From Acidobacteriota bacterium (GTDB lineage: Bacteria > Acidobacteriota > Blastocatellia > RBC074): a stretch of DNA of 17,779 nt. Location of the stretch: the NCBI GenBank assembly GCA_013140935.1, contig JABFSD010001209.1, positions 1 to 17,779 of the forward strand. The letters are read 5' to 3'. The notes under the pieces were generated by a model. That model did no database searches, was not told the DNA's origin, and saw only the letters and a program-made list of their open reading frames with translations. Position numbers and translations under genes: made by a program. Positions 7,167 through 17,753 of the stretch are shown here, one piece after another; position 1 is the stretch's first letter; each line of letters begins with the position of its first letter.

Positions 7167-7663
7167 TGCTTTTCCTCCTGATCTATCTTGACGAACCGAA
7201 AGTCGCAACACGCCGCGCCTTGCATCAAGGTTTGCGTACGCGTCAGTTGAATGGTTGGGTTGAAGCCTTCGATCAACGCGAAATCCCGATTGCACGAAAG
7301 CACCGCGCCGAGTTCGGGAATGCCCAGCGCGCGATACATCTCAGCATAACGACAGCGTGTCACGTTGAAGTCATAGCGTTCGTCGTTTTCCGTCAACACG
7401 TCCATCTGCATCGCGTCGTCTTTCTGCCAAGCCAGCAAGGCACGCGCGAAATCCGCCATCTCGTTGCCGCCGGTTTGCGCGGCGAGTTGTGCGCCTTGTT
7501 CGCGGGCGACGCGAATGATCGTGTCGCGGACGATTTCGAGCACTCGTTCGCGTCCAAACTCTTCGCCTAACGCCGCCAGCACAGGCGCGAGAATGCGGGC
7601 TTCGATCTCGCGGCGTTTGAGTACGCCGATGTCGTTTAAGGTGTCAGGCGGTAACTGATTCAT
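7163..7663 (-). CDS. ATC hydrolase family protein (L-2-amino-thiazoline-4-carboxylate hydrolase-like)
   Basis: A 166-residue protein resembling the ATC_hydrolase family, named for the Pseudomonas enzyme that opens L-2-amino-thiazoline-4-carboxylate to N-carbamoyl-L-cysteine. Seen: a helical N-terminal half ([20 protein letters not shown], then [16 protein letters not shown]) and a C-terminal core with [35 protein letters not shown], and [13 protein letters not shown]. The conserved CRYAEMY, C-D and C-DFR elements fit the family. Many members have no demonstrated ATC activity, so the substrate here is open. The start is ATG at 7663 with no clear Shine-Dalgarno sequence. It is the first gene of the leftward string and would be driven from the divergent region 7664-7738. 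Its 3' end overlaps the next gene by 4 bases. A cysteine-related role would fit the PLP enzymes at 1497 and 8811 but is speculative. Confidence 0.85.
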
Positions 7664-8711: not shown

Positions 8712-8799
8712 AATTTTAGCCACGAATTCACACGAATTCTTTTTATTGGCGCGACGACATCTCATTCGTGCCAATTCGTGAAAATTCGTGGCTAAAATT
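8712..8799. repeat. Imperfect inverted repeat of the CCACGAATT type (27-bp arms)
   Basis: Left arm 8712-8738 pairs with right arm 8773-8799: the outer 17 bases AATTTTAGCCACGAATT and their complement at 8783-8799 are perfect, followed by a 2-base mismatch and another 8 perfect pairs (CACGAATT with AATTCGTG). The loop is 34 bases. The arm itself repeats CACGAATT. It lies between the deoxyhypusine-synthase-like stop (8698) and the TTG start of the next gene (8811). It could terminate transcription in either direction or be a dispersed palindromic element; the sequence alone does not decide. Confidence 0.85.
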
Positions 8800-9827: not shown

Positions 9828-9846
9828 GCCGAACCAGCAAAAATTT

Positions 9847-10593
9847 ATGCCACGAATTTTAGTGACCAACGATGACGGCTATTTTGCCGAAGGAATCAAA
9901 ACGCTCGCCGCCGCTTTGGCAAATGTCGGCGAAGTTTTCGTCGTCGCGCCCGCGACCGAACAAAGCGCGACTTCGCATTCGCTGACGCTGACGCGACCGC
10001 TGCGCGTGAGAAAACACGACGAACATCTTTACACGGTAGACGGTACGCCGACCGATTGTGTAATTCTCGCGGTGACGACGATCTTGAAAGATACGCCGCC
10101 TGACATCGAGGTTTCAGGCATCAACCACGGCGCGAACGTCGGCGACGACGTCATCTATTCAGGCACAGTCGCCGGTGCGCTCGAAGGCGCGCTTTGCGGC
10201 TTGCCCGGCATCGCGGTGAGCTTATCCATGCGTGAAGGCGACTTTTCTCACGCGGCTGAATTCGCGGCGCAAGTTACGCGCAAAGTGTTAGACGAAGGCT
10301 TGCCGCCGCATACGATCTTGAACGTCAACGTACCCGTCGGCCCGATTCGTGGCGTACGTTGGGTGAAGCAAGGCATGAAAGGCGCGCAAAACAATATCTT
10401 CAGCGGAACCGATCCGCGCGGGCTGCCTTATCTGTGGATCGGCGCGCAAAAGTTTTTCGATGAAGTCGAACCTGACAGCGATTACGCCGCGATGCGCGAC
10501 GGCGTAGCCTCGATCACGCCGCTGCGCGTTGATTTGACTGATTACGCTTTGCTCGAAAAGTGGAGCCGACGTAGCACAGACTTCAGTCTGTGA
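9847..10593 (+). CDS. surE: 5'/3'-nucleotidase SurE
   Basis: A survival protein E nucleotidase, 248 residues, which dephosphorylates nucleoside monophosphates using a divalent metal. The metal ligands are all visible: D9 and D10 in ILVTNDDG, S40 in ATEQSATSHS, and N97 in SGINHGANVGDDVIYSGTVA. The start is ATG at 9847 (MPRILVTNDDG), 19 bases after the preceding stop. The frame is open upstream to 9790, but that region is the 3' end of the PLP-enzyme gene in another frame, and SurE proteins begin at this methionine. No Shine-Dalgarno sequence is seen. The last eight residues (RRSTDFSL) and the TGA are encoded by the left arm of the inverted repeat at 10568-10686, so the C-terminus has been rewritten by that element. 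The next gene is pcm, the classical surE partner. Confidence 0.96.
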   Translation: MPRILVTNDDGYFAEGIKTLAAALANVGEVFVVAPATEQSATSHSLTLTRPLRVRKHDEHLYTVDGTPTDCVILAVTTILKDTPPDIEVSGINHGANVGDDVIYSGTVAGALEGALCGLPGIAVSLSMREGDFSHAAEFAAQVTRKVLDEGLPPHTILNVNVPVGPIRGVRWVKQGMKGAQNNIFSGTDPRGLPYLWIGAQKFFDEVEPDSDYAAMRDGVASITPLRVDLTDYALLEKWSRRSTDFSL

Positions 10594-10686
10594 CCCGTAG
10601 TGTGGACTTTAGTCCGCACAAAAAGAATCGAACTGTGCGGACTAAAGTCTACACTACGGGTCACAGACTGAAGTCTGTGCTACGTC
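10568..10686. repeat. Large nested inverted repeat A (53-bp arms) between surE and pcm
   Basis: Arms 10568-10620 and 10634-10686 match at 52 of 53 positions; the single mismatch (G10604 opposite T10650) would be a G-U pair in RNA. The loop is 13 bases. Each arm contains two smaller palindromes: P1 GCACAGACTTCAGTCTGTG (10574-10592) and P2 TGTGGACTTTAGTCCGC (10601-10617), 8 bases apart. P1 and P2 are shared with the repeat at 16353-16464. The left arm overlaps the end of surE and the right arm ends 7 bases before the pcm ATG. Confidence 0.97.
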
Positions 10687-10693
10687 AATAACG

Positions 10694-11383
10694 ATGGACA
10701 TAAAACTCACCCACAATCTGAAACTCACTTATCAGCAAGACACGCCTGCCCATACGCGCCACCGCGCCGAGATGGTCGCGCGCCTGCGCAAGCAAGGCAT
10801 CAAAGACGAACGAGTACTCGCCGCGATGCTCGCCGTGCCACGCCATCTTTTCGTGCCCGAACTGATGCGACACAATTCTTACGGCGATCACGCGCTGCCC
10901 ATCGCAGGCCAGCAAACCATTTCGCAACCTTACATCGTCGCGCGCGAAACCGAATTGCTGATGCTCAATCGGCACGACCGCGTGTTAGAGATTGGCGCGG
11001 GGTCGGGTTATCAAACCGCTGTATTGGCAATGGTCGCGGGGCAAGTCTTCGCACTCGAACGACTGACCGAACTCGCGCGCGGCGCCCAAGCCTTGATGAC
11101 AACGCTCGGATTTCACAACACGACGATCAAATGGATGGACGGGACCATGGGCTGGCAAGACCTCGCGCCCTTTCAAGGCATTCTCGTGGCCGCGGGTTCG
11201 CCTGATGTGCCGCAACCGCTGCTCGATCAACTCGATGAAAACGGCAGGCTGGTCATTCCCGTCGGCGACGAACGCGAACAGCGATTGATTCGCGCCACCC
11301 GCCACGGCGATGAGTTCACGCGCGAAGATCACGGTGCCTGCAAGTTCGTAAAACTAATCGGGCGACACGGCTGGCAAGCCTGA
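10694..11383 (+). CDS. pcm: Protein-L-isoaspartate O-methyltransferase
   Basis: Repairs age-damaged proteins by methylating L-isoaspartyl residues with S-adenosylmethionine. It is 229 residues, the usual size of about 210-230. Seen: RHRAEMVARLRKQGI, the typical N-terminal helix, followed by VPRHLFVPE (48-56), QQTISQPYIVA (73-83, isoaspartate-binding segment), the SAM motif I VLEIGAGSGYQTAVLA (97-112), PQPLLDQLDENGRLVIPVG (173-191), and the terminal CKFVKLIGRHGW. The ATG at 10694 gives the expected N-terminus; Met27 is an alternative. No Shine-Dalgarno sequence is visible, since the repeat arm ends 7 bases upstream. Adjacency to surE is a long-known conserved pairing linked to stationary-phase and stress survival in other bacteria; here the two are separated only by the palindrome. 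The same operon as the upstream genes is likely. Confidence 0.96.
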   Translation: MDIKLTHNLKLTYQQDTPAHTRHRAEMVARLRKQGIKDERVLAAMLAVPRHLFVPELMRHNSYGDHALPIAGQQTISQPYIVARETELLMLNRHDRVLEIGAGSGYQTAVLAMVAGQVFALERLTELARGAQALMTTLGFHNTTIKWMDGTMGWQDLAPFQGILVAAGSPDVPQPLLDQLDENGRLVIPVGDEREQRLIRATRHGDEFTREDHGACKFVKLIGRHGWQA

Positions 11384-11546
11384 GCCTGACAAGCTAAGAT
11401 GCCCGCCGTTGAGTGAGAGACATGCGCGATTCCCACAGCAGGCGCGCGGCCCGTTCGACAAATCAGCCGCTGAGATTGATGTTTTTTCCGTTGTAAGTCA
11501 GACCCACAAAACACGTTTCACCAAACGGTGTTCATTCTTTTGCGGC
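11384..11546. other. Gap between pcm and the 238-residue gene, with a small hairpin
   Basis: A 163-bp gap. A stem at 11510-11532 (AACAC-GTTT paired with AAAC-G-GTGTT, one bulge, CACC loop) is followed by TCATTCTTTTG, a weak terminator candidate. The reading frame of the next gene is open back to a TTG at 11409, but that extension looks non-coding in composition. No convincing promoter was recognised. Confidence 0.35.
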
Positions 11547-12263
11547 ATGAACTATTTCAATTATTTCTCTGAGGTCGAAAGCGAATTCGTCAAACGGCGC
11601 GGCAGCCACTTGCTGGTGTCGCCGCTCGATTGGTCGCTGATCGAAAGCTGGAAACAACGCGGCGTACCGTTGCACGTCGTCTTGCGCGGCATCAACAGTT
11701 CGTTTGACGGTTATGACAAGCGGCTGCATCGCGGACGCAAGGTCAATACGCTGTTTTTTTGCCAGCAGGAAGTCGAAGCCCTTTTCCTCGACCACACCGC
11801 CGCACACATCGGCGGCAATGGAAGCAACGGCCACGTGACGAAAGACGAAGATGCTTCGATTTTCAGCGTGAAGCGCGTCATCGAACACTTGCACGAGCAA
11901 CACGCACTGCTTGACGGGTTGAACCGTCAGCACGAAAACGACTGGCCGCTGGCTGAAGTTTTTGGACGCGCCGCCGCCCGCTTGCACGAAATCGTCGCGG
12001 CGCTCAACGAGTCGTCAGCCTTCAACGCCGAAGCGCTTGAAACCGATCTAACGCTGATCGAAAACGTCATTCTCGAAGGCCTCAAACAATGCGCCGATGC
12101 TGAGACGCTGAAGTCGCTCGAAAAAGACACGAACAAACAAATGCGCGCTTACAAAGACAAGATGGAAGCCGCCGTGTTTGAACAGACGCGGCAAAATTAT
12201 CTCGCGCGCCGCTTGCGCGAAACTTATCGCGTACCGCGCCTGAGCCTTTTTTACTTGAATTAA
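11547..12263 (+). CDS. Conserved hypothetical protein, helical, charged
   Basis: A 238-residue protein of unknown function. It opens MNYFNYFSEVESEFVKRRGS, then HLLVSPLDWSLIESWKQRGV and PLHVVLRGINSSFDGYDKRL, a segment I associate with hypothetical proteins of Acidobacteriota. This is memory of the family, not a search result. A basic linker HRGRKVNTLFFCQQEVEALF follows, then mostly helical sequence rich in Glu, Leu, Lys and Arg (for example KDTNKQMRAYKDKMEAAVFE) that could form coiled coil. No signal peptide, membrane span or catalytic motif is seen. The start is ATG 11547, chosen because conservation begins there; an earlier in-frame TTG at 11409 would add 46 residues of unlike composition. 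It ends 1 base before the rRNA/tRNA methyltransferase start, so the two are probably translated from one message, hinting at a link to RNA modification. Confidence 0.85.
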   Translation: MNYFNYFSEVESEFVKRRGSHLLVSPLDWSLIESWKQRGVPLHVVLRGINSSFDGYDKRLHRGRKVNTLFFCQQEVEALFLDHTAAHIGGNGSNGHVTKDEDASIFSVKRVIEHLHEQHALLDGLNRQHENDWPLAEVFGRAAARLHEIVAALNESSAFNAEALETDLTLIENVILEGLKQCADAETLKSLEKDTNKQMRAYKDKMEAAVFEQTRQNYLARRLRETYRVPRLSLFYLN

Positions 12264-12264
12264 A

Positions 12265-13503
12265 ATGACCGCATTTGGTGAACAACTCGCGCCCGCGCTC
12301 ACCCTCGGTGACGTAGTGGAAGTGCAAATCGAAAAGCTGGTATACGGCGGCGAAGGCCTGGCGCGTTACGGCAAGCAAACGGTTTTCGTACCGCTCGCTG
12401 CACCGGGCGCCCGCCTGCGCATTCGCATCACACAATGCGAACGCAACTTCGCGCGCGGCGTGATTGAAAAAATTCTCGAACCTTCATCGCTGCGCCGTCA
12501 GCCGCCTTGCCCGCATTTCGGCCAATGCGGCGGCTGCCAGTTGCAACATCTAGAACTCGCCGCCCAACACGCCGCCAAAGCCGAATTCGTCCGCGAATCG
12601 TTGCGACGGCTTGGACAAATCGAATGGACGCACGAGATTCCCGTGCGCGCGGCAGATGAGTTCGGCTATCGCTCGCGCGCCGAAATCAAAGTGCGCCGCG
12701 ACGTTCATGACAAGGTTCACATCGGTTATTACCAATCGGGTACGCGCGAGATTTGCGAAGTGCGCGATTGCGCGATTTTGCTGCCTTCGCTCAATCGTGA
12801 GTTGCAACGCTTGCACGACGAACCCGCGCTGATTCCTTACGGCGCGACACGCGTACATTTAACCGCCGGCGACGATGCCACCTTCATCACGCCTGCGACC
12901 GGCGAAGATGCCAAAGCGCAAGAGATTGACGCGCAAGGTACGGCGCAGCAAAACATCGCCGGCATGCGGTATGAGTTCGGCGTTCGTTCGTTCTTTCAAG
13001 GCAATCGTTTACTGGTCGAATCGTTGGTCGAAGAAGTCGTCGGCAATACGAGCGGCGATTTGGTGATTGACCTTTACGCCGGCGTAGGACTTTTCGCCTT
13101 GCAACTCGCGCAGCGTTTCGCCCAAGTCGTCGCCGTCGAAGGCAGCAAACTTTCTGCCGCGCACGGCCTCGCCAACGTCAAAGCCAACAACATTGCGAAC
13201 GTACATTTCGACGGCCTCTCGGTCGAAGCCTGGCTCAAACACAAAAGCGCCGAATGGCCGCGCCCTGATTTAGTCATACTTGATCCGCCCCGCGCCGGCG
13301 CTGGCCTCACCGTCATCGAACGCCTCGCCGCGCTCGACGCACCGCAATTGATTTATGTCTCGTGCGACCCGGCGACGCTGGCGCGCGATCTGAAAGCGCT
13401 GCTCAGTTACGGTTATCACTTAGACGCGGTGACGGCCTTTGATCTGTTCCCGCAAACCTTTCACGTAGAAACAATAGCGAAACTCTCAAAGCCAACCGTT
13501 TAA
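12265..13503 (+). CDS. RlmD/TrmA-family (uracil-5-)-methyltransferase
   Basis: A SAM-dependent RNA m5U methyltransferase, 412 residues, the normal length. Domains in order: N-terminal TRAM RNA-binding fold (about 14-70, EVQIEKLVYGGEGLARYGKQ), an iron-sulfur motif with C82, C88, C91 (PPCPHFGQCGGC) and C169 (EVRDCA), a central RNA-recognition part, then the Rossmann methyltransferase with SFFQGN (242-247), DLYAGVGLFAL (269-279), DPPRAG (340-345), YVSCDPATLARDL with the nucleophile C367, and FPQTFHVETIA with the general base E402. Cys-rich TrmA-family members usually act on 23S rRNA (RlmD/RlmCD) or, in some lineages, on tRNA U54; I cannot separate these. The ATG at 12265 lies one base after the previous stop. 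A perfect palindrome starts 2 bases after the TAA. Confidence 0.96.
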   Translation: MTAFGEQLAPALTLGDVVEVQIEKLVYGGEGLARYGKQTVFVPLAAPGARLRIRITQCERNFARGVIEKILEPSSLRRQPPCPHFGQCGGCQLQHLELAAQHAAKAEFVRESLRRLGQIEWTHEIPVRAADEFGYRSRAEIKVRRDVHDKVHIGYYQSGTREICEVRDCAILLPSLNRELQRLHDEPALIPYGATRVHLTAGDDATFITPATGEDAKAQEIDAQGTAQQNIAGMRYEFGVRSFFQGNRLLVESLVEEVVGNTSGDLVIDLYAGVGLFALQLAQRFAQVVAVEGSKLSAAHGLANVKANNIANVHFDGLSVEAWLKHKSAEWPRPDLVILDPPRAGAGLTVIERLAALDAPQLIYVSCDPATLARDLKALLSYGYHLDAVTAFDLFPQTFHVETIAKLSKPTV

Positions 13504-13505
13504 CT

Positions 13506-13599
13506 GTTTAGAGTACCGCCTTTAGGCGGAATCGGAGGCTTTAGCCGACTTGCAAGTCGGCTAAAGCCTCCGATTCCGCCTAAAGGCGGTACTCTAAAC
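13506..13599. repeat. Large perfect palindrome B (47-bp arms, no loop)
   Basis: Bases 13506-13552 are exactly the reverse complement of 13553-13599, a 94-base uninterrupted palindrome centred on TTGCAA. Each arm holds smaller palindromes: CCGCCTTTAGGCGG and GGCTTTAGCC, and the centre is itself GCCGACTTGCAAGTCGGC. It lies 2 bases after the stop of the methyltransferase gene and 27 bases before comEC. A transcript would form a very stable hairpin on either strand; no T-run follows. Confidence 0.97.
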
Positions 13600-13626
13600 G
13601 TTGGGCACTCTATACATTCATTAGCC

Positions 13627-16350
13627 ATGCGCCGTTTAACCTTTCCACAAATCACTTTGCCGCAACAGCCGCTGGTCTTTTTGGCGTTGGCCTTTATCGC
13701 AGGATTGTGGCTGGCGTCGCGCCTCACGCTTACGCCGCGCGTATGGCTCAACGCTTTCGTGATTGTCTGGTGTGTCGCGCTGTTGTGCTGGCGGATGCAC
13801 GCGCGCGACGCATTCATCACAACGATTTTGTTATGCGGCTTTGCACTCGCAGGTGCAGGATTGTGGGCTTTGCACGCGGCGCAAGTCGCGCCTTCGCGTG
13901 TCATCAAACTTTACGAACGCGGCGCGTGGCGCGCTGACGAACCCGTCGAACTCATCGGCACACTCGCCACCACGCCCGAAGCCGCGCCCGATCGTTTTTA
14001 TCTGAGCCTCAACGTCGAGCAACTTTCCTCCTTCGCGCAAATCCACACCGCCACCGGCGCGGTGCAAATCGTAGCGCCGTTGCGCGATGAAACCTCGAAA
14101 CAGGATTACGTCGCGTTGCAACTCGATTACGGCACGCGCGTACGGATGCTCGTGATGCTCACAACCAGCGGAGGCTTCGGCAATCCGGGCGCGCCGCAAT
14201 TCGGCGAGATGTTGGAACTGCGCGGCGTAGACGCGACGGGCTGGGTGAAGAGTCCACTGTTGATCGAACGTTTGGGCGATGCGCCGCGCAATGCCTTGCT
14301 CTGGCGGTTATATCGTTGGCGTGCCACAGCCATAGAAAGACTTATTCAAACCAATCGCCAACCCGCCGCTGGAATTTTAGCGGCTTCGTTATTGGGCAGC
14401 CGTTACTGGCTTGATCGCCGCGCGGCGCAAACCTTTCGCGAAGGCGGCACGTTTCACTTGCTCGTCATTTCAGGCGCGCACGTCGCTGTCATTGCTTTCG
14501 TCTTGCTGTGGCTCGCGCGGCGCGTGTGGCGTTCGCGCGTGACGCAATACGTTGTGGTGATCGTGTTGCTGTGGGCTTATACGGTGATGGTCGGCGCGCA
14601 ACCCGCCATCACGCGCGCGACAGTGATGATTACGATTGCACTGTTAGGGCAATTGCTCTTCCGGCAAGCGTTAGGCGCGAATACGCTGGCGGCTTCGGCG
14701 CTGGTGTTGCTGGCGTGGCAGCCGCGCGATCTTTTCAATCCAGGCTTTCAGCTTTCGTTCCTCACCGTGTTGGTCATCGTCGCGCTGGTCGCACCGCTTT
14801 ACGAAAGGCTGCGACACATCGGCACGTGGGAGCCTACGGCGTCAACGCCTTATCCGCCGCGCGTGCCGCGTTCGATCAAACGATTGGCCGAACTGTTGTT
14901 TTGGGATGAACGCAATTACCGCATTGAGATGAAAGAAGGCACAGTGAAATATCGCATCGAAAAATGGCGCGTGGCGCGTTGGCTGAGTCGCGCGCGGCTG
15001 CAAGCGCCGTTGCGCTGGGTAACGGCGACATTGGTCACAACCGTTTGCATTCAACTCGCACTGTTGCCGTTGATGGTTATTCACTTTCACCGGTTCTCGA
15101 TTGTTTCGCCGCTAACGAACGTAATCGAAAGCCTCTTGATCAGCGCGCTGATGATCGTTGGTGCGGCGCAACTCACCGTTGGCATTTTCAGCGCAACACT
15201 CGCCGCCTGGTTCAGCCCATTGATTCACTGGCTCGGCAAGCTCACCGTCAGCGCAGGTGAGCAACCACTCGCGCTGCCACTCGCGCGCTTGCGCGTACCC
15301 GATTGGGGCACGGGCGAACGTTATGTTTATGGCGGTTACTGGCTGCTGTTCATCGTGCTGGTCGTCTTGCTCAACGTTTGGCATCCGTTGCGCAAGGGCG
15401 ATGCGGCGAATGACGCGACGCGACGACGCAACGGTCGCCTCAGCGCCGCTGCAACCATCAGCGCCATTTTGATTATCAGCACACTCATCATCGCGCATCC
15501 TTTCGCGCCGCACTTCATGCCGGGGCGGCTCGCCATCACCTTCCTAGACGTAGGCCAAGGCGACGCAATGTTGCTGCAATTTCCACGCGGACAAACCATG
15601 GTGCTCGACAGCGGCGGACGGCTGGCTTACGCGGTCAATAACGAAGACCTCAACGAAGACCTGTTTATCGAAGACCGCATCGGCATTGGCGAAGCCGCCG
15701 TGATGCCCTATCTCTGGCGGCTGGGTTTGCGGCGACTTGATTACATTGCGGCTACGCATGCCGACAGCGATCACGTCGAGGCCTTCGGCGAAATCACGCA
15801 GGGCTTCGCGGTCAAACAGGCACTGGCGGGGTTTGCATCATCAACCGATTTGTTTTCGCAAGCGATTCGTCAACACGGCATTCCGCTGCGCGTCGTCAAA
15901 CGCGGTGAGGCTTTTGAATTTGACGGCGTGCAATGGCAAGTGCTGGCTCCTTTCGCTGACGCCGATGCGGTGAGCAACACCGACAACAACGCTTCACTCG
16001 TGGTACGCGTGCGTTATGGTCAACGCACGTTTCTGCTGACCGGCGACATCGAACGAGAAACCGAAGCGCGCCTGGTGCAAGAAGAACCCGACCTGCACGC
16101 CGACGTGCTGAAAGTCGCGCATCACGGTTCGCGCACTTCTTCGACGCACGACTTTCTCGCGCGCATCAAACCGCAACACGCGATCATTTCCGCCGCCGAC
16201 CCCAGCCCTTACGGACATCCGCATCCCGAAGTCGTCGAACGCTTGCAACGCGCGGGCGCGCAGCTTTGGGCGACGGGCAAGTGCGGTGCGATTACGTTCA
16301 CGACCGACGGCAATGCTTTGCAGGCCAGTTCGTTTAAGGTTTGCCATTAA
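13627..16350 (+). CDS. comEC: ComEC/Rec2 DNA-internalisation competence protein
   Basis: An inner-membrane channel protein for uptake of single-stranded DNA, 907 residues, complete and slightly longer than typical (about 750-850). Seen: N-terminal hydrophobic helices (LVFLALAFIAGLWLASRLTL), a DUF4131/OB-like soluble segment (about residues 95-215), then the Competence domain with GTFHLLVISGAHVAVIAFVL and a YTVMVGAQPAITRATVMI transmembrane bundle. The C-terminal metallo-beta-lactamase domain shows FLDVGQGDAMLLQF (from about 639), ATHADSDHVEAFGE (about 709), LTGDIERE (about 803) and VAHHGSRTSS (about 830), so the metal-binding histidines appear intact. A charged insertion around residue 415-450 (DERNYRIEMKEGTVKYRIEK) breaks the membrane bundle and accounts for part of the extra length. 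The ATG at 13627 has no visible Shine-Dalgarno sequence. Other uptake genes are not in the window. Confidence 0.96.
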   Translation: MRRLTFPQITLPQQPLVFLALAFIAGLWLASRLTLTPRVWLNAFVIVWCVALLCWRMHARDAFITTILLCGFALAGAGLWALHAAQVAPSRVIKLYERGAWRADEPVELIGTLATTPEAAPDRFYLSLNVEQLSSFAQIHTATGAVQIVAPLRDETSKQDYVALQLDYGTRVRMLVMLTTSGGFGNPGAPQFGEMLELRGVDATGWVKSPLLIERLGDAPRNALLWRLYRWRATAIERLIQTNRQPAAGILAASLLGSRYWLDRRAAQTFREGGTFHLLVISGAHVAVIAFVLLWLARRVWRSRVTQYVVVIVLLWAYTVMVGAQPAITRATVMITIALLGQLLFRQALGANTLAASALVLLAWQPRDLFNPGFQLSFLTVLVIVALVAPLYERLRHIGTWEPTASTPYPPRVPRSIKRLAELLFWDERNYRIEMKEGTVKYRIEKWRVARWLSRARLQAPLRWVTATLVTTVCIQLALLPLMVIHFHRFSIVSPLTNVIESLLISALMIVGAAQLTVGIFSATLAAWFSPLIHWLGKLTVSAGEQPLALPLARLRVPDWGTGERYVYGGYWLLFIVLVVLLNVWHPLRKGDAANDATRRRNGRLSAAATISAILIISTLIIAHPFAPHFMPGRLAITFLDVGQGDAMLLQFPRGQTMVLDSGGRLAYAVNNEDLNEDLFIEDRIGIGEAAVMPYLWRLGLRRLDYIAATHADSDHVEAFGEITQGFAVKQALAGFASSTDLFSQAIRQHGIPLRVVKRGEAFEFDGVQWQVLAPFADADAVSNTDNNASLVVRVRYGQRTFLLTGDIERETEARLVQEEPDLHADVLKVAHHGSRTSSTHDFLARIKPQHAIISAADPSPYGHPHPEVVERLQRAGAQLWATGKCGAITFTTDGNALQASSFKVCH

Positions 16351-16352
16351 GC

Positions 16353-16464
16353 GTGGCGCAGGCTTCAGCCTGTGAGACGTTGTGTGGACTTTAGTCCGCC
16401 CGTCATTGCAGTAAGTCGCGGACTAAAGTCCACACAACGTCTCACAGGCTGAAGCCTGCGCCAC
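16353..16464. repeat. Large nested inverted repeat C (47-bp perfect arms) after comEC
   Basis: Arms 16353-16399 and 16418-16464 are perfect reverse complements with an 18-base loop. The arm contains GCGCAGGCTTCAGCCTGTG (16356-16374) and TGTGGACTTTAGTCCGC (16383-16399), 8 bases apart. The second is identical to 10601-10617 in repeat A, and the first matches P1 of repeat A at 16 of 19 positions including one compensatory A-T to G-C pair change. It starts 2 bases after the comEC stop codon. Confidence 0.97.
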
Positions 16465-16508: not shown

Positions 16509-17753
16509 ATGGCTGCCGCATCCCTTTCCGAAGCAAATCCAACTCCTTCACGACTCGGTTATCGTCCAGCGCTCGACGGCGTGCGCGGGCTGCATTTCCT
16601 TCTTATTCTCATCTATCACTCCAGTTTGTATTGGTGGATCGAAGGCATTCCGCTCGTGGCTTTCGTCGGCGGCTATCTCGCCGTAGACAGTTTTTTCGTA
16701 CTGAGCGGATTTTTGATTACGACCTTGTTACTCGAAGAGTGGGAACGCACAGGCGCAATCAAGCTCAGTCACTTTTACATGCGACGGGCTTTGCGCTTGC
16801 TGCCTGCATTGTTGGCGATGCTGTTGGTGATGGGAATCTATCGGCAGTTTTTCGCCGACCCCAACGAACGCATCGTGATCGGTAATGGCATGTTCGGCGC
16901 ATTCTTTTATTGCGCCAACGTAATGCTGACATTGGGCAAAGACCTGGGCGCATTCACGCATACGTGGTCGCTCTCACTCGAAGAACAGTTCTATGTTTTT
17001 TGGCCTACGTTAGTCGCGCTGACGTTGCGGCGACGCTGGCCGCGCGGTTTGCTGGTGGGCGTATGCGTGCTGCTCATTGCCGCAACACTCGTCTGGCGCG
17101 CAGTGCTATGGGTGCATTATCACAAGGGCTTGGGGCGAATGCTTTACGCGCCCGATACGCGCTTCGATTCGCTGCTGGTCGGCTGTCTCGTAGGCATGAT
17201 TTGGAGTTGGCACTGGATTGCCGCTACGCCGCGCAATCGCCAACTCGGCTGGTGGTTCGCCTGTCTGGGTTCATTGTTTTTGCTGTGGCAATACTTGCGT
17301 ACCGATGCGCCTGATCCGTTTCTTTACGCGCGTGGCGGATTCACCTGGGTCGCCATCGGTTACGCGGGGCTGTTATGGGGCTTGCTCGAATTCCCTTTCA
17401 AACCGCTGCGTTACCTGTTTGAAAACCGCTTTGTCGTTTGGTGCGGCAAGACTTCTTACAGCCTTTATCTGTGGCACGTACCCGTCATCTATTTTTTCAA
17501 AGTCAAAACCGGAAGCTGGAACGCGCCCGTGATCGCGGCGGCGTGGCTTACCGTTTTTCTGGTGTCAGGCACTTCTTATTACGCGCTCGAACGGCCTTGC
17601 CTGCGATTGAAACGATTCTTTTCCAGCACGGACAAAGGTGGTGCGCCAGCGTCCCGCTGGCGCACCCCTTATTTCCCGCTAAACACCGGCTTCCGCTTTT
17701 CGCCGAACGCGCGAATCGCTTCGGCTACGTCGCCGCTGCTCAAACAAATCTGA
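16509..17753 (+). CDS. Membrane acyltransferase family 3 protein with repeat-derived C-terminal tail
   Basis: An integral-membrane O-acyltransferase (Acyltransferase_3 family, as in OatA or NodX), 414 residues. Seen: RPALDGVRG (19-27), the first membrane helix with H37 (the expected catalytic His), VDSFFVLSGFLITTLL, SHFYMRRALRLLPALLAMLL, HTWSLSLEEQFYVFWPT, and a terminal SLYLWHVPVIYFF and ALERPCLRLKRFF. These are the family's conserved blocks. The acceptor could be peptidoglycan, a polysaccharide or a lipid; nothing here decides. I start at ATG 16509; a TTG at 16473 in frame gives 12 more residues but no better signal. The family normally ends near ERPCLRLKRFF; from about residue 376 the frame runs through a palindrome and then antisense to the convergent hydratase gene (GGAPASRWRTPYFPL onward), so the last 39 residues look acquired. 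Confidence 0.9.
   Translation: MAAASLSEANPTPSRLGYRPALDGVRGLHFLLILIYHSSLYWWIEGIPLVAFVGGYLAVDSFFVLSGFLITTLLLEEWERTGAIKLSHFYMRRALRLLPALLAMLLVMGIYRQFFADPNERIVIGNGMFGAFFYCANVMLTLGKDLGAFTHTWSLSLEEQFYVFWPTLVALTLRRRWPRGLLVGVCVLLIAATLVWRAVLWVHYHKGLGRMLYAPDTRFDSLLVGCLVGMIWSWHWIAATPRNRQLGWWFACLGSLFLLWQYLRTDAPDPFLYARGGFTWVAIGYAGLLWGLLEFPFKPLRYLFENRFVVWCGKTSYSLYLWHVPVIYFFKVKTGSWNAPVIAAAWLTVFLVSGTSYYALERPCLRLKRFFSSTDKGGAPASRWRTPYFPLNTGFRFSPNARIASATSPLLKQI
17635..17670. repeat. GC-rich palindrome D at the convergent junction
   Basis: GGTGCGCCAGCG (17640-17651) pairs perfectly with CGCTGGCGCACC (17655-17666) around a TCC loop; one bulged T (17639) then AAGG with CCTT extends the stem to 17635-17670. It lies between the acyltransferase core and the hydratase stop codon and overlaps both frames. 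It may act as a terminator for both genes, although no clear T-run follows on either side. Confidence 0.9.

Follow-up and report, generated by a model that had tools for sequence, protein, structure and literature searches.

Repetitive extragenic palindromes (REPs) and the REP-associated tyrosine transposases (RAYTs, or TnpAREP proteins) are the closest described relatives of the repeats considered here. In Pseudomonas fluorescens SBW25, inverted REP pairs form REPINs (REP doublets forming hairpins), which have conserved ends and a less conserved spacer, are extragenic and hold no autonomous gene, and RAYT genes there have adjacent REPs (PMC3116915). GTAG REP families 1-24 carry a GTAG, GTGG or GTRG foot, a 6-13 bp stem and in many cases a TY loop, form head-head dimers, and lie near stop codons or supply them (Di Nocera 2013, PMC3733652). 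Elements that are alike in these respects occur in contig JABFSD010001209.1 of a soil bacterium of the Acidobacteriota, class Blastocatellia, analysed here as a stretch of 17,779 nt (the window) that contains three large palindromes, A, B and C. A and C are very probably non-autonomous GTAG REP elements in REPIN arrangement, which would most likely be mobilised by RAYTs encoded elsewhere in the genome, while B most likely goes back to a third type of REP in this genome and has lost the GTAG. REPs or REPINs with a RAYT are a known kind of system; mobility in this genome is inferred.

The genome is a fragmented draft (6.09 Mb in 1235 contigs, 73.8% complete) and was compared within a set of 58 genomes that includes it, the relatives being labelled as of the same genus, family or class. 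Repeat units were catalogued in 61 sources, namely the window and a further 20 and 40 contigs (366 kb of the 6.09 Mb); these contigs were chosen for pattern hits or Y1 transposase matches, and their densities are therefore not genome averages. The unit, about 25 nt with its tag, consists of a GTAG-like tetranucleotide, a 7-base half-stem, the loop TTYA and a second 7-base half-stem. Hairpins with a TTYA loop and at least four perfect pairs number 196 in the 61 sources, against 42, 10, 33 and 20 for four permuted loops. Four types are distinguished by the inner stem: I (AGAC or AGGC), II (GGAC), III (CGCC) and IV (CGAC). The tag at the 5' foot is the hallmark that makes A and C REPs, and was overlooked in the initial annotation. 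When type I and II hairpins are selected by stem and loop alone, GT stands at positions -11/-10 in 118 of 118 and G at -8 in 109 of 118. Of 62 arms of each type, 39 (type I) and 40 (type II) have exact GTAG, and the others read GTGG, GTTG, GTAT or GTTT. It is also the foot of all 7 type IV units and of 37 of 47 type III units; the other 10 type III units are those of repeat B, where GTAG was sought and is absent, AGAG taking its place in every B unit sampled. In window coordinates, with types and hairpin strands given for each element, the features are:

10571..10683, no strand: element A, a nested REPIN of the form I+ II+ II- I- (tag to tag), between surE and pcm
10571..10592, + strand: outer left REP of A, type I, tag GTAG at 10571-10574 and hairpin CACAGACTTCAGTCTGTG
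10597..10618, + strand: inner left REP of A, type II, tag GTAG at 10597-10600 and hairpin TGTGGACTTTAGTCCGCA
10636..10657, - strand: inner right REP of A, type II, tag at 10654-10657, one stem mismatch
10662..10683, - strand: outer right REP of A, type I, tag at 10680-10683
13506..13599, no strand: element B, foot AGAG at 13510-13513, where GTAG is expected
13516-13529 and 13537-13546: outer hairpin CCGCCTTTAGGCGG and inner core GGCTTTAGCC of B, both mirrored
16353..16464, no strand: element C, a nested REPIN I+ II+ II- I- with identical arms, between comEC and an acyltransferase gene
16353..16374, + strand: outer left REP of C, type I, tag GTGG and hairpin CGCAGGCTTCAGCCTGTG
16379..16399, + strand: inner left REP of C, type II, tag GTTG and hairpin TGTGGACTTTAGTCCGC
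16418..16438, - strand: inner right REP of C, type II, tag at 16435-16438
16443..16464, - strand: outer right REP of C, type I, tag at 16461-16464

The three palindromes are real, as had been asserted: they head the window's list of 62 inverted pairs, followed by two A-C cross-matches (47-48 nt, 83-85%), and none of 200 dinucleotide shuffles folds as well as A, B or C as a single DNA strand (z -18.6 to -19.9). The arms of A (10568-10620 and 10634-10686) are 53 nt long and 98% identical, with one mismatch between them; those of C (16353-16399 and 16418-16464) are 47 nt and 100% identical; and those of B (13506-13552 and 13553-13599), also 47 nt and 100% identical, have a spacer of 0 and form a perfect 94-bp palindrome. 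The initial annotation had called such structures far larger than REPs or bacterial interspersed mosaic elements (BIMEs), which does not hold, since the composites measure 94-119 bp and inter-REP distances of 71 and 110 bp are known for REPINs (PMC3116915). Its 8-base spacer between the outer palindrome P1 and the inner palindrome P2 resolves into four linker bases and the 4-base tag (ACCC-GTAG in A, AGAC-GTTG in C). The left arms of A and C do share P2 exactly (TGTGGACTTTAGTCCGC), and there is a single mismatch in the right arm of A. Between A and C, P1 is changed at 3 of 19 bases, as described, with one A-T pair changed to G-C and the third change turning A-T into G-T.

Pairing in the P1 stem is maintained beyond the window, in 97.7% of cells over 38 distinct type I variants, and the covariation score of these variants is 0.270 compared with 0.202 when shuffled (0 of 500 shuffles as high), to be read with caution as the search pattern by which the type I/II arms were collected holds some inner-stem positions constant. 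The proposed compensatory change between A and C belongs to this variation across the genome: it is a difference between subfamilies, both common genome-wide (type I pair 2 over 62 arms: A-T 45, G-C 16, G-T 1), and not a local repair. Pair 6 is likewise variable (G-C 26, G-T 24, A-T 12), and pairing fails at pair 4 in 6 of 62 arms. In type II the fifth pair is T-G in 61 of 62 arms. A G-T wobble on one strand is what would be expected of a transcribed or strand-specific hairpin, and to this extent favours the view that these are host RNA elements (terminators or 3'-end stabilisers) kept for gene regulation, with their spread secondary; that view, to which we return with the gene context, is very unlikely overall. 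A conserved stem irregularity is also a trait of E. coli REPs, which share the GTAG foot and whose TnpAREP (4ER8) is the best fold match reported below (PMC8266576). In E. coli BIMEs the REPs alternate in orientation (PMC2817692), whereas here the tags always point outward and the arms are near-perfect mirrors.

The initial annotation had proposed a dispersed REP-like hairpin family, and had named in advance, as the contrary outcome, units present only here and in none of the relatives. The opposite is seen, and the proposal is supported. The P2 core TGGACTTTAGTCC has 61 matches in the 6.09 Mb, and none for the reversed pattern that served as control. A wider I/II pattern matches 150 times in this genome and a type III pattern 94 times, again with no control match. 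The I/II pattern recurs in 8 of the 58 genomes (this one 150, G053 227, G012 95, G019 55, G020 47, G027 5, G042 3 and G037 1), with controls of 0 in all but G019 (1); in the same-genus G001 it has 0 matches. Type III is found in 18 of 58 genomes, including this one, G001 (58), G006 (73) and G017 (383), with controls of 0. The B arm is confined to this genome, with 19 half-sites in 13 contigs and none in the other 57 genomes. This patchy distribution suggests gain by transfer or repeated loss. Loss of SbcD was considered as a cause of the long palindromes, and no link is claimed, as G017, the genome richest in type III, passes the TIGR00619 (SbcD equivalog) cut-off. That model scores above cut-off in 12 of 58 genomes and in none of 11 of the host's own family, the best score in the host being 61.0 bits (cut-off 77.65).

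A search of the host genome with PF01797 (Y1_Tnp) gave four matches. Two are RAYT-like genes, on contigs C970 and C484, and both are flanked by these REP units, so that the proposed check for a TnpA_REP (Y1 HUH) gene had a positive outcome:

L027:1947-2648: RAYT gene of C970, with type I/II REPs on both sides
L030:963-1604: RAYT gene of C484, with type III REPs on both sides, one side carrying a 48-bp tandem array

In C970, residues N116, H119 and Y192 are invariant over 33 aligned sequences and H117 is present in at least 90%; the Y1 HUH motifs of C484 were identified by eye. For both proteins the best sequence match in the PDB is 4er8, the E. coli TnpAREP (E 3.9e-4 for C970, 7.4e-4 for C484). 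The modelled fold of C970 (mean predicted local distance difference test score, pLDDT, 89.6) also matches 4er8 best, a RAYT bound to a REP hairpin, with E 3.3e-8 and template modelling (TM) scores of 0.45 by query and 0.61 by target, although the overall root-mean-square deviation is poor at 11.6. By eye and not by a tree, the C970 motifs NHVH, WQ and YVENNP place it near TnpAREP subclasses 2.4 and 2.7, and the motifs NHYH and YVHHNP with a length of 199 aa from ATG place C484 near subclass 2.8 (PMC6006769). Long REPs with GT[AG]G lie on either side of genes of subclasses 2.4, 2.7 and 2.8. Subclass 2.8 came only from Cyanobacteria in that sample, with related sequences noted elsewhere, and its W motif is W[YH], whereas that of C484 is WF. 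The same paper places class 3 proteins in Acidobacteria (PMC6006769); Acidobacteria are also named for transposases flanked by terminal inverted repeats (TIRYT) in PMC3733652, and palindromes have been counted in three Acidobacteriota (PMC12306157).

C970 has 1852 homologues; of those listed (120), several carry the name RayT in their source, and two from other sources (86% and 78% identity, neighbourhoods unseen) are closer than any in the 58 genomes. A scan of named genomes gave 13 relatives of the RAYT. Within the 58 genomes the nearest relative of C970 is in G053 (56% identity, another family), where the matching REP type adjoins and tagged TTYA hairpins are seen by eye on both sides, one with a stem mismatch. 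The nearest relative of C484 is in G019 (66%, again another family), with matching inverted REP pairs on both sides.

Several side observations concern these genes. Partial C970 matches at G000:C574:8799-9011, C1061:5017-5355 and C1012:910-1092 (G000 being the host genome) are probably remnants or contig-cut copies. The gene preceding the C970 RAYT encodes, by eye, a cytochrome-like CxxCH protein, and its 3' end (L027, about 1690-1765) recurs in diverged form right after the RAYT (2735-2800), as if duplicated around it. On L030, 15-bp units ending in GTAG (CAACCGCGTTCGTAG; 1587-1627 and 1839-1879) flank the type III array without a hairpin and iterate as if copying had stuttered at the tag. 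The other two Y1 matches, C451 and C408, were set aside as IS200-like in appearance (NF033573, 71.6 bits, over the cut-off of 55, and 53.4 bits); no CTTYAG hairpin lies in the stretches fetched for them, that of C408 beginning at the contig start with one flank unseen.

Comparison of gene order shows that sites A and B are empty in relatives. At site A, pcm follows surE in 8 of 10 surE loci of relatives, the repeat being present in 0 of the 8 junctions, and the distance from surE residue 238 to pcm residue 2 is 26 nt in the same-genus G001 versus 136 in the window. Element A supplies the last codons and stop of surE itself (9847..10593, + strand; tail ...RRSTDFSL). B lies between the 23S rRNA methyltransferase gene rlmD and comEC. 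These genes adjoin in 4 of 10 comEC loci of relatives, and the site is empty in all three (G006, G004 and G012) where both align to their facing ends; in the fourth, G003, the comEC start is missing from the match. The acyltransferase gene next to C stands beside comEC in none of the relatives examined. In the window, surE, pcm, the methyltransferase gene, comEC and the acyltransferase gene are all on the + strand. Of the 401 homologues of the methyltransferase, 120 were listed; those with a named organism belong to Acidobacteriota and mostly to Blastocatellia, which also points to that class for the host.

Across the genome, 58 clusters were placed relative to genes called with a crude open reading frame (ORF) caller, of which 11 were at contig ends; of the 47 with two-sided context, 3 fall inside an ORF. 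Flanking 3' ends lie within 25 nt of an element or inside it in 34 of 43 cases, which, together with the 45-50 bp stems into which the composites fold, would suit RNA elements acting at transcript ends. Flanking 5' ends are equally close in 31 of 45 cases, however, because the elements fill short gaps. None of the window's 11 terminator-like sites (stem and T run, loops 3-8) lies on A, B or C, and such sites show no regional excess over shuffles. The empty sites in relatives also count against a regulatory origin, which leaves the GTAG foot and the flanked RAYTs unexplained. Stop codons of flanking genes fall inside the element in 8 of 44 elements with two neighbours, as has been reported for GTAG REPs (PMC3733652). 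In the window, no Rfam family reaches its gathering score and a tRNA scan gave zero tRNAs. Two further features of the window are a strong terminator-like stem of 12 pairs at 17640-17666, near the end of the acyltransferase gene, and another inverted repeat, not of the TTYA-hairpin kind, at 8712-8738 and 8773-8799 (27 nt, 93%, motif AATTCGTGGCTAAAATT), of which 9841-9860, at a distance of 1 kb, is a related copy.

Intergenic insertion, inverted arms of 47-53 nt and near-identical copies would equally be expected of miniature inverted-repeat transposable elements (MITEs) with long terminal inverted repeats, mobilised by an ordinary DDE transposase. Each arm here, however, is one or two tagged hairpins, and the RAYT genes are flanked on both sides by the same units. 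Nor do the flanks show a clear excess of direct repeats over shuffled flanks, the CGCG end of type III aside. For 22 I/II elements (repeats of 3-8 nt, outward offsets of 0-12), 4-mers numbered 2 against 1.0 in shuffled flanks, 5-mers 1 against 0.3, and none reached 6; 15 type III elements gave 12 against 8.4 for 4-mers and 2 against 0.7 for 6-mers, and 4 B copies gave 0. The type III 4-mer excess comes mainly from the self-complementary CGCG of the conserved outer end. In most type III elements of this genome a conserved GCGTTC lies outward of either tag, which puts their true ends 6-8 nt beyond the tag, and boundaries were shifted in the test for this reason. We regard a MITE origin as highly improbable.

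Under one detection rule, 63 clusters of this genome comprise ++-- (22), +- (13), +-- (7), -- (5), - (5), + (4), ++ (3), +++-- (2) and ++- (2). Same-strand neighbours are 24-27 nt apart and inverted neighbours mostly 32-45, and pairs with tags inside number 0 in these clusters and in the stretches of G053, G012 and G020. Under a stricter rule, 13 of 70 clusters are complete I+ II+ II- I- units. Clusters with a type II core are covered almost in full (58 of 61 hits): 39 were found, of which 21 are ++--, 2 are +++-- and the other 16 are +--, ++-, ++ or --; all 39 contain a same-strand doublet, and 8 are at contig ends. Stretches of relatives were initially hand-picked from the hit listing, often with two hits close together, a bias that favours pairs; passed-over places were added and clusters recounted from the top of the listing, over 20 places in G053 and 13 in G020, those of G012 remaining hand-picked only. 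The 21 clusters of G053 are +- (13), single (6), +--- (1) and ++-- (1), with same-strand units about 25 nt apart in 1 of 21 and 66-67 nt apart in another. G020 gave 10 singles, 3 +- and 0 doublets in 13, and G012 8 +- and 5 singles in 13 clusters, with zero doublets. These counts indicate that elements of the A/C type in this genome as a rule have two-tier arms, which are absent from the sampled relatives or rare there.

The two-tier REP arm, with type I outside and type II inside in each half of the element, appears to be a new feature, and distinguishes these elements from the SBW25 REPINs (PMC3116915), whose arms do not hold two different tandem REPs 24-27 nt apart. No description of this family was found in the open-access papers searched, subscription literature lying outside the search. 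We infer that a REP was doubled in tandem in each arm and that the copies then diverged, giving types I and II. An alternative history, in which a type II REPIN inserted into one of type I (an event of the sort described in SBW25, PMC3116915), is less likely because of the fixed 24-27 nt spacing on both sides. Over 21 elements (210 pairs), mean identity is 0.855 for arms and 0.543 for spacers (better of two orientations), with 0.446 for shuffled sequence; copying of the whole element with its spacer was set aside, the spacers being weakly related. In 13 full elements, arm identity is 0.937 within and 0.868 between elements (shuffle p 5e-5). Homogenisation of arms within elements gave a mixed picture and was not adopted: 5 of 22 arm pairs are identical, 3 of them private to one element, and several elements are mosaics. 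A lone double-foot REP (GTAGCACAGACTTCAGTCTGTGCTAC; L044, G000:C837, about 7208-7233) has the form that central deletion of an inverted pair would leave.

We speculate, tentatively, that the nested form is a distinct derived mobile element whose outer and inner REPs have separate roles, the outer tag guiding cutting, for example, and the inner hairpin with its conserved T-G pair serving as a binding site; that copying takes place between the two arms of an element; and that the tag-less B spread recently in one species by a GTAG-independent route. Such a combination is possible but doubtful.

The kinship of B with A and C, which had been founded on a shared hairpin centre, is weaker than proposed, since B has no tag. 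Beyond its loop, the inner hairpin of B, GGCTTTAGCC, is held by only 3 pairs. B could instead be a separate palindrome that merely resembles type III REPs and spread in some other way, such as replication fold-back, an explanation that concerns B and not A or C. The missing GTAG, the zero spacer, the near-identical copies and the confinement to 13 contigs of this genome, none of them a RAYT contig, and to 0 of 57 relatives would fit it. Its outer hairpin and flank (TACCGCCTTYAGGCGGAAT), however, are the same as in type III variants of this genome that do carry GTAG, which makes descent from a REP likely and a separate origin the weaker option, although one to be taken seriously. Three B copies (L037, L038 and L197; G000:C95, C269 and C765) share a nearly identical left flank, ATAACTTGATGGTTTGGGCGC; B may thus lie in a longer repeat, or these contigs may be variants of one locus. 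Insertion of B into older palindromes was considered, as some outer flanks are partly complementary, and dropped, a test on 4 copies being not significant.

Mobilisation of A and C by RAYTs remains the favoured explanation. Their hairpins are short, with a TTYA loop, a GTAG-like 5' foot and inverted pairs whose tags face outward. The RAYT, as a Y1 HUH single-strand transposase, would bind the folded single strand, most likely with the tag as guide, and would nick beside the tag, copying or moving the element into intergenic gaps. Other TnpAREP proteins cleave single-stranded REPs, the GTAG foot being crucial in E. coli and a guide in Marinomonas (PMC8266576); by analogy, the RAYTs of this genome may use the same tag-guided cleavage, and they probably moved these copies.

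Several observations weigh against this explanation. First, the family models are not firmly matched: with Pfam Y1_Tnp, C484 scores 22.5 bits, below the cut-off of 23, and C970 passes (32 bits) only with its neighbours in frame, while NF047646 (REP_Tyr_transpos), the sole NCBIfam family that matches either RAYT, gives 69.8 and 74.8 bits against a cut-off of 80. Second, at the loci fetched and scanned, 28 of 30 C970-like and 18 of 20 C484-like genes have no tagged TTYA hairpin beside them, the exceptions being those of the host with G053 and G019, respectively; some genomes with REP-less RAYT loci carry type III REPs elsewhere. Conversely, 47-95 I/II-pattern units occur in G012, G019 and G020, genomes that have no close C970-type RAYT; the correspondence of REP with RAYT is therefore not strictly one to one. 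Third, no enrichment of convergent gaps was seen (35 tandem, 4 convergent and 5 divergent, versus a background of 177, 38 and 37), and two of five covariation measures are at shuffle level (double-change pairs 2 against 2.2, further pair types 6 against 6.2). Finally, B has spread even though it lacks GTAG, and zero movement events were observed.

Such palindromes call for care in draft genomes, since they break assemblies (several B and type II copies are at contig ends) and can change predicted gene ends, as in surE. A GTAG REP/RAYT system is present in Blastocatellia, and both of its RAYT-REP pairs are found again elsewhere in the class, each in a different family. Two-tier arms and a perfect palindrome without a tag offer naturally occurring variants with which to ask what part of a REP is read by a RAYT and how long palindromes survive.

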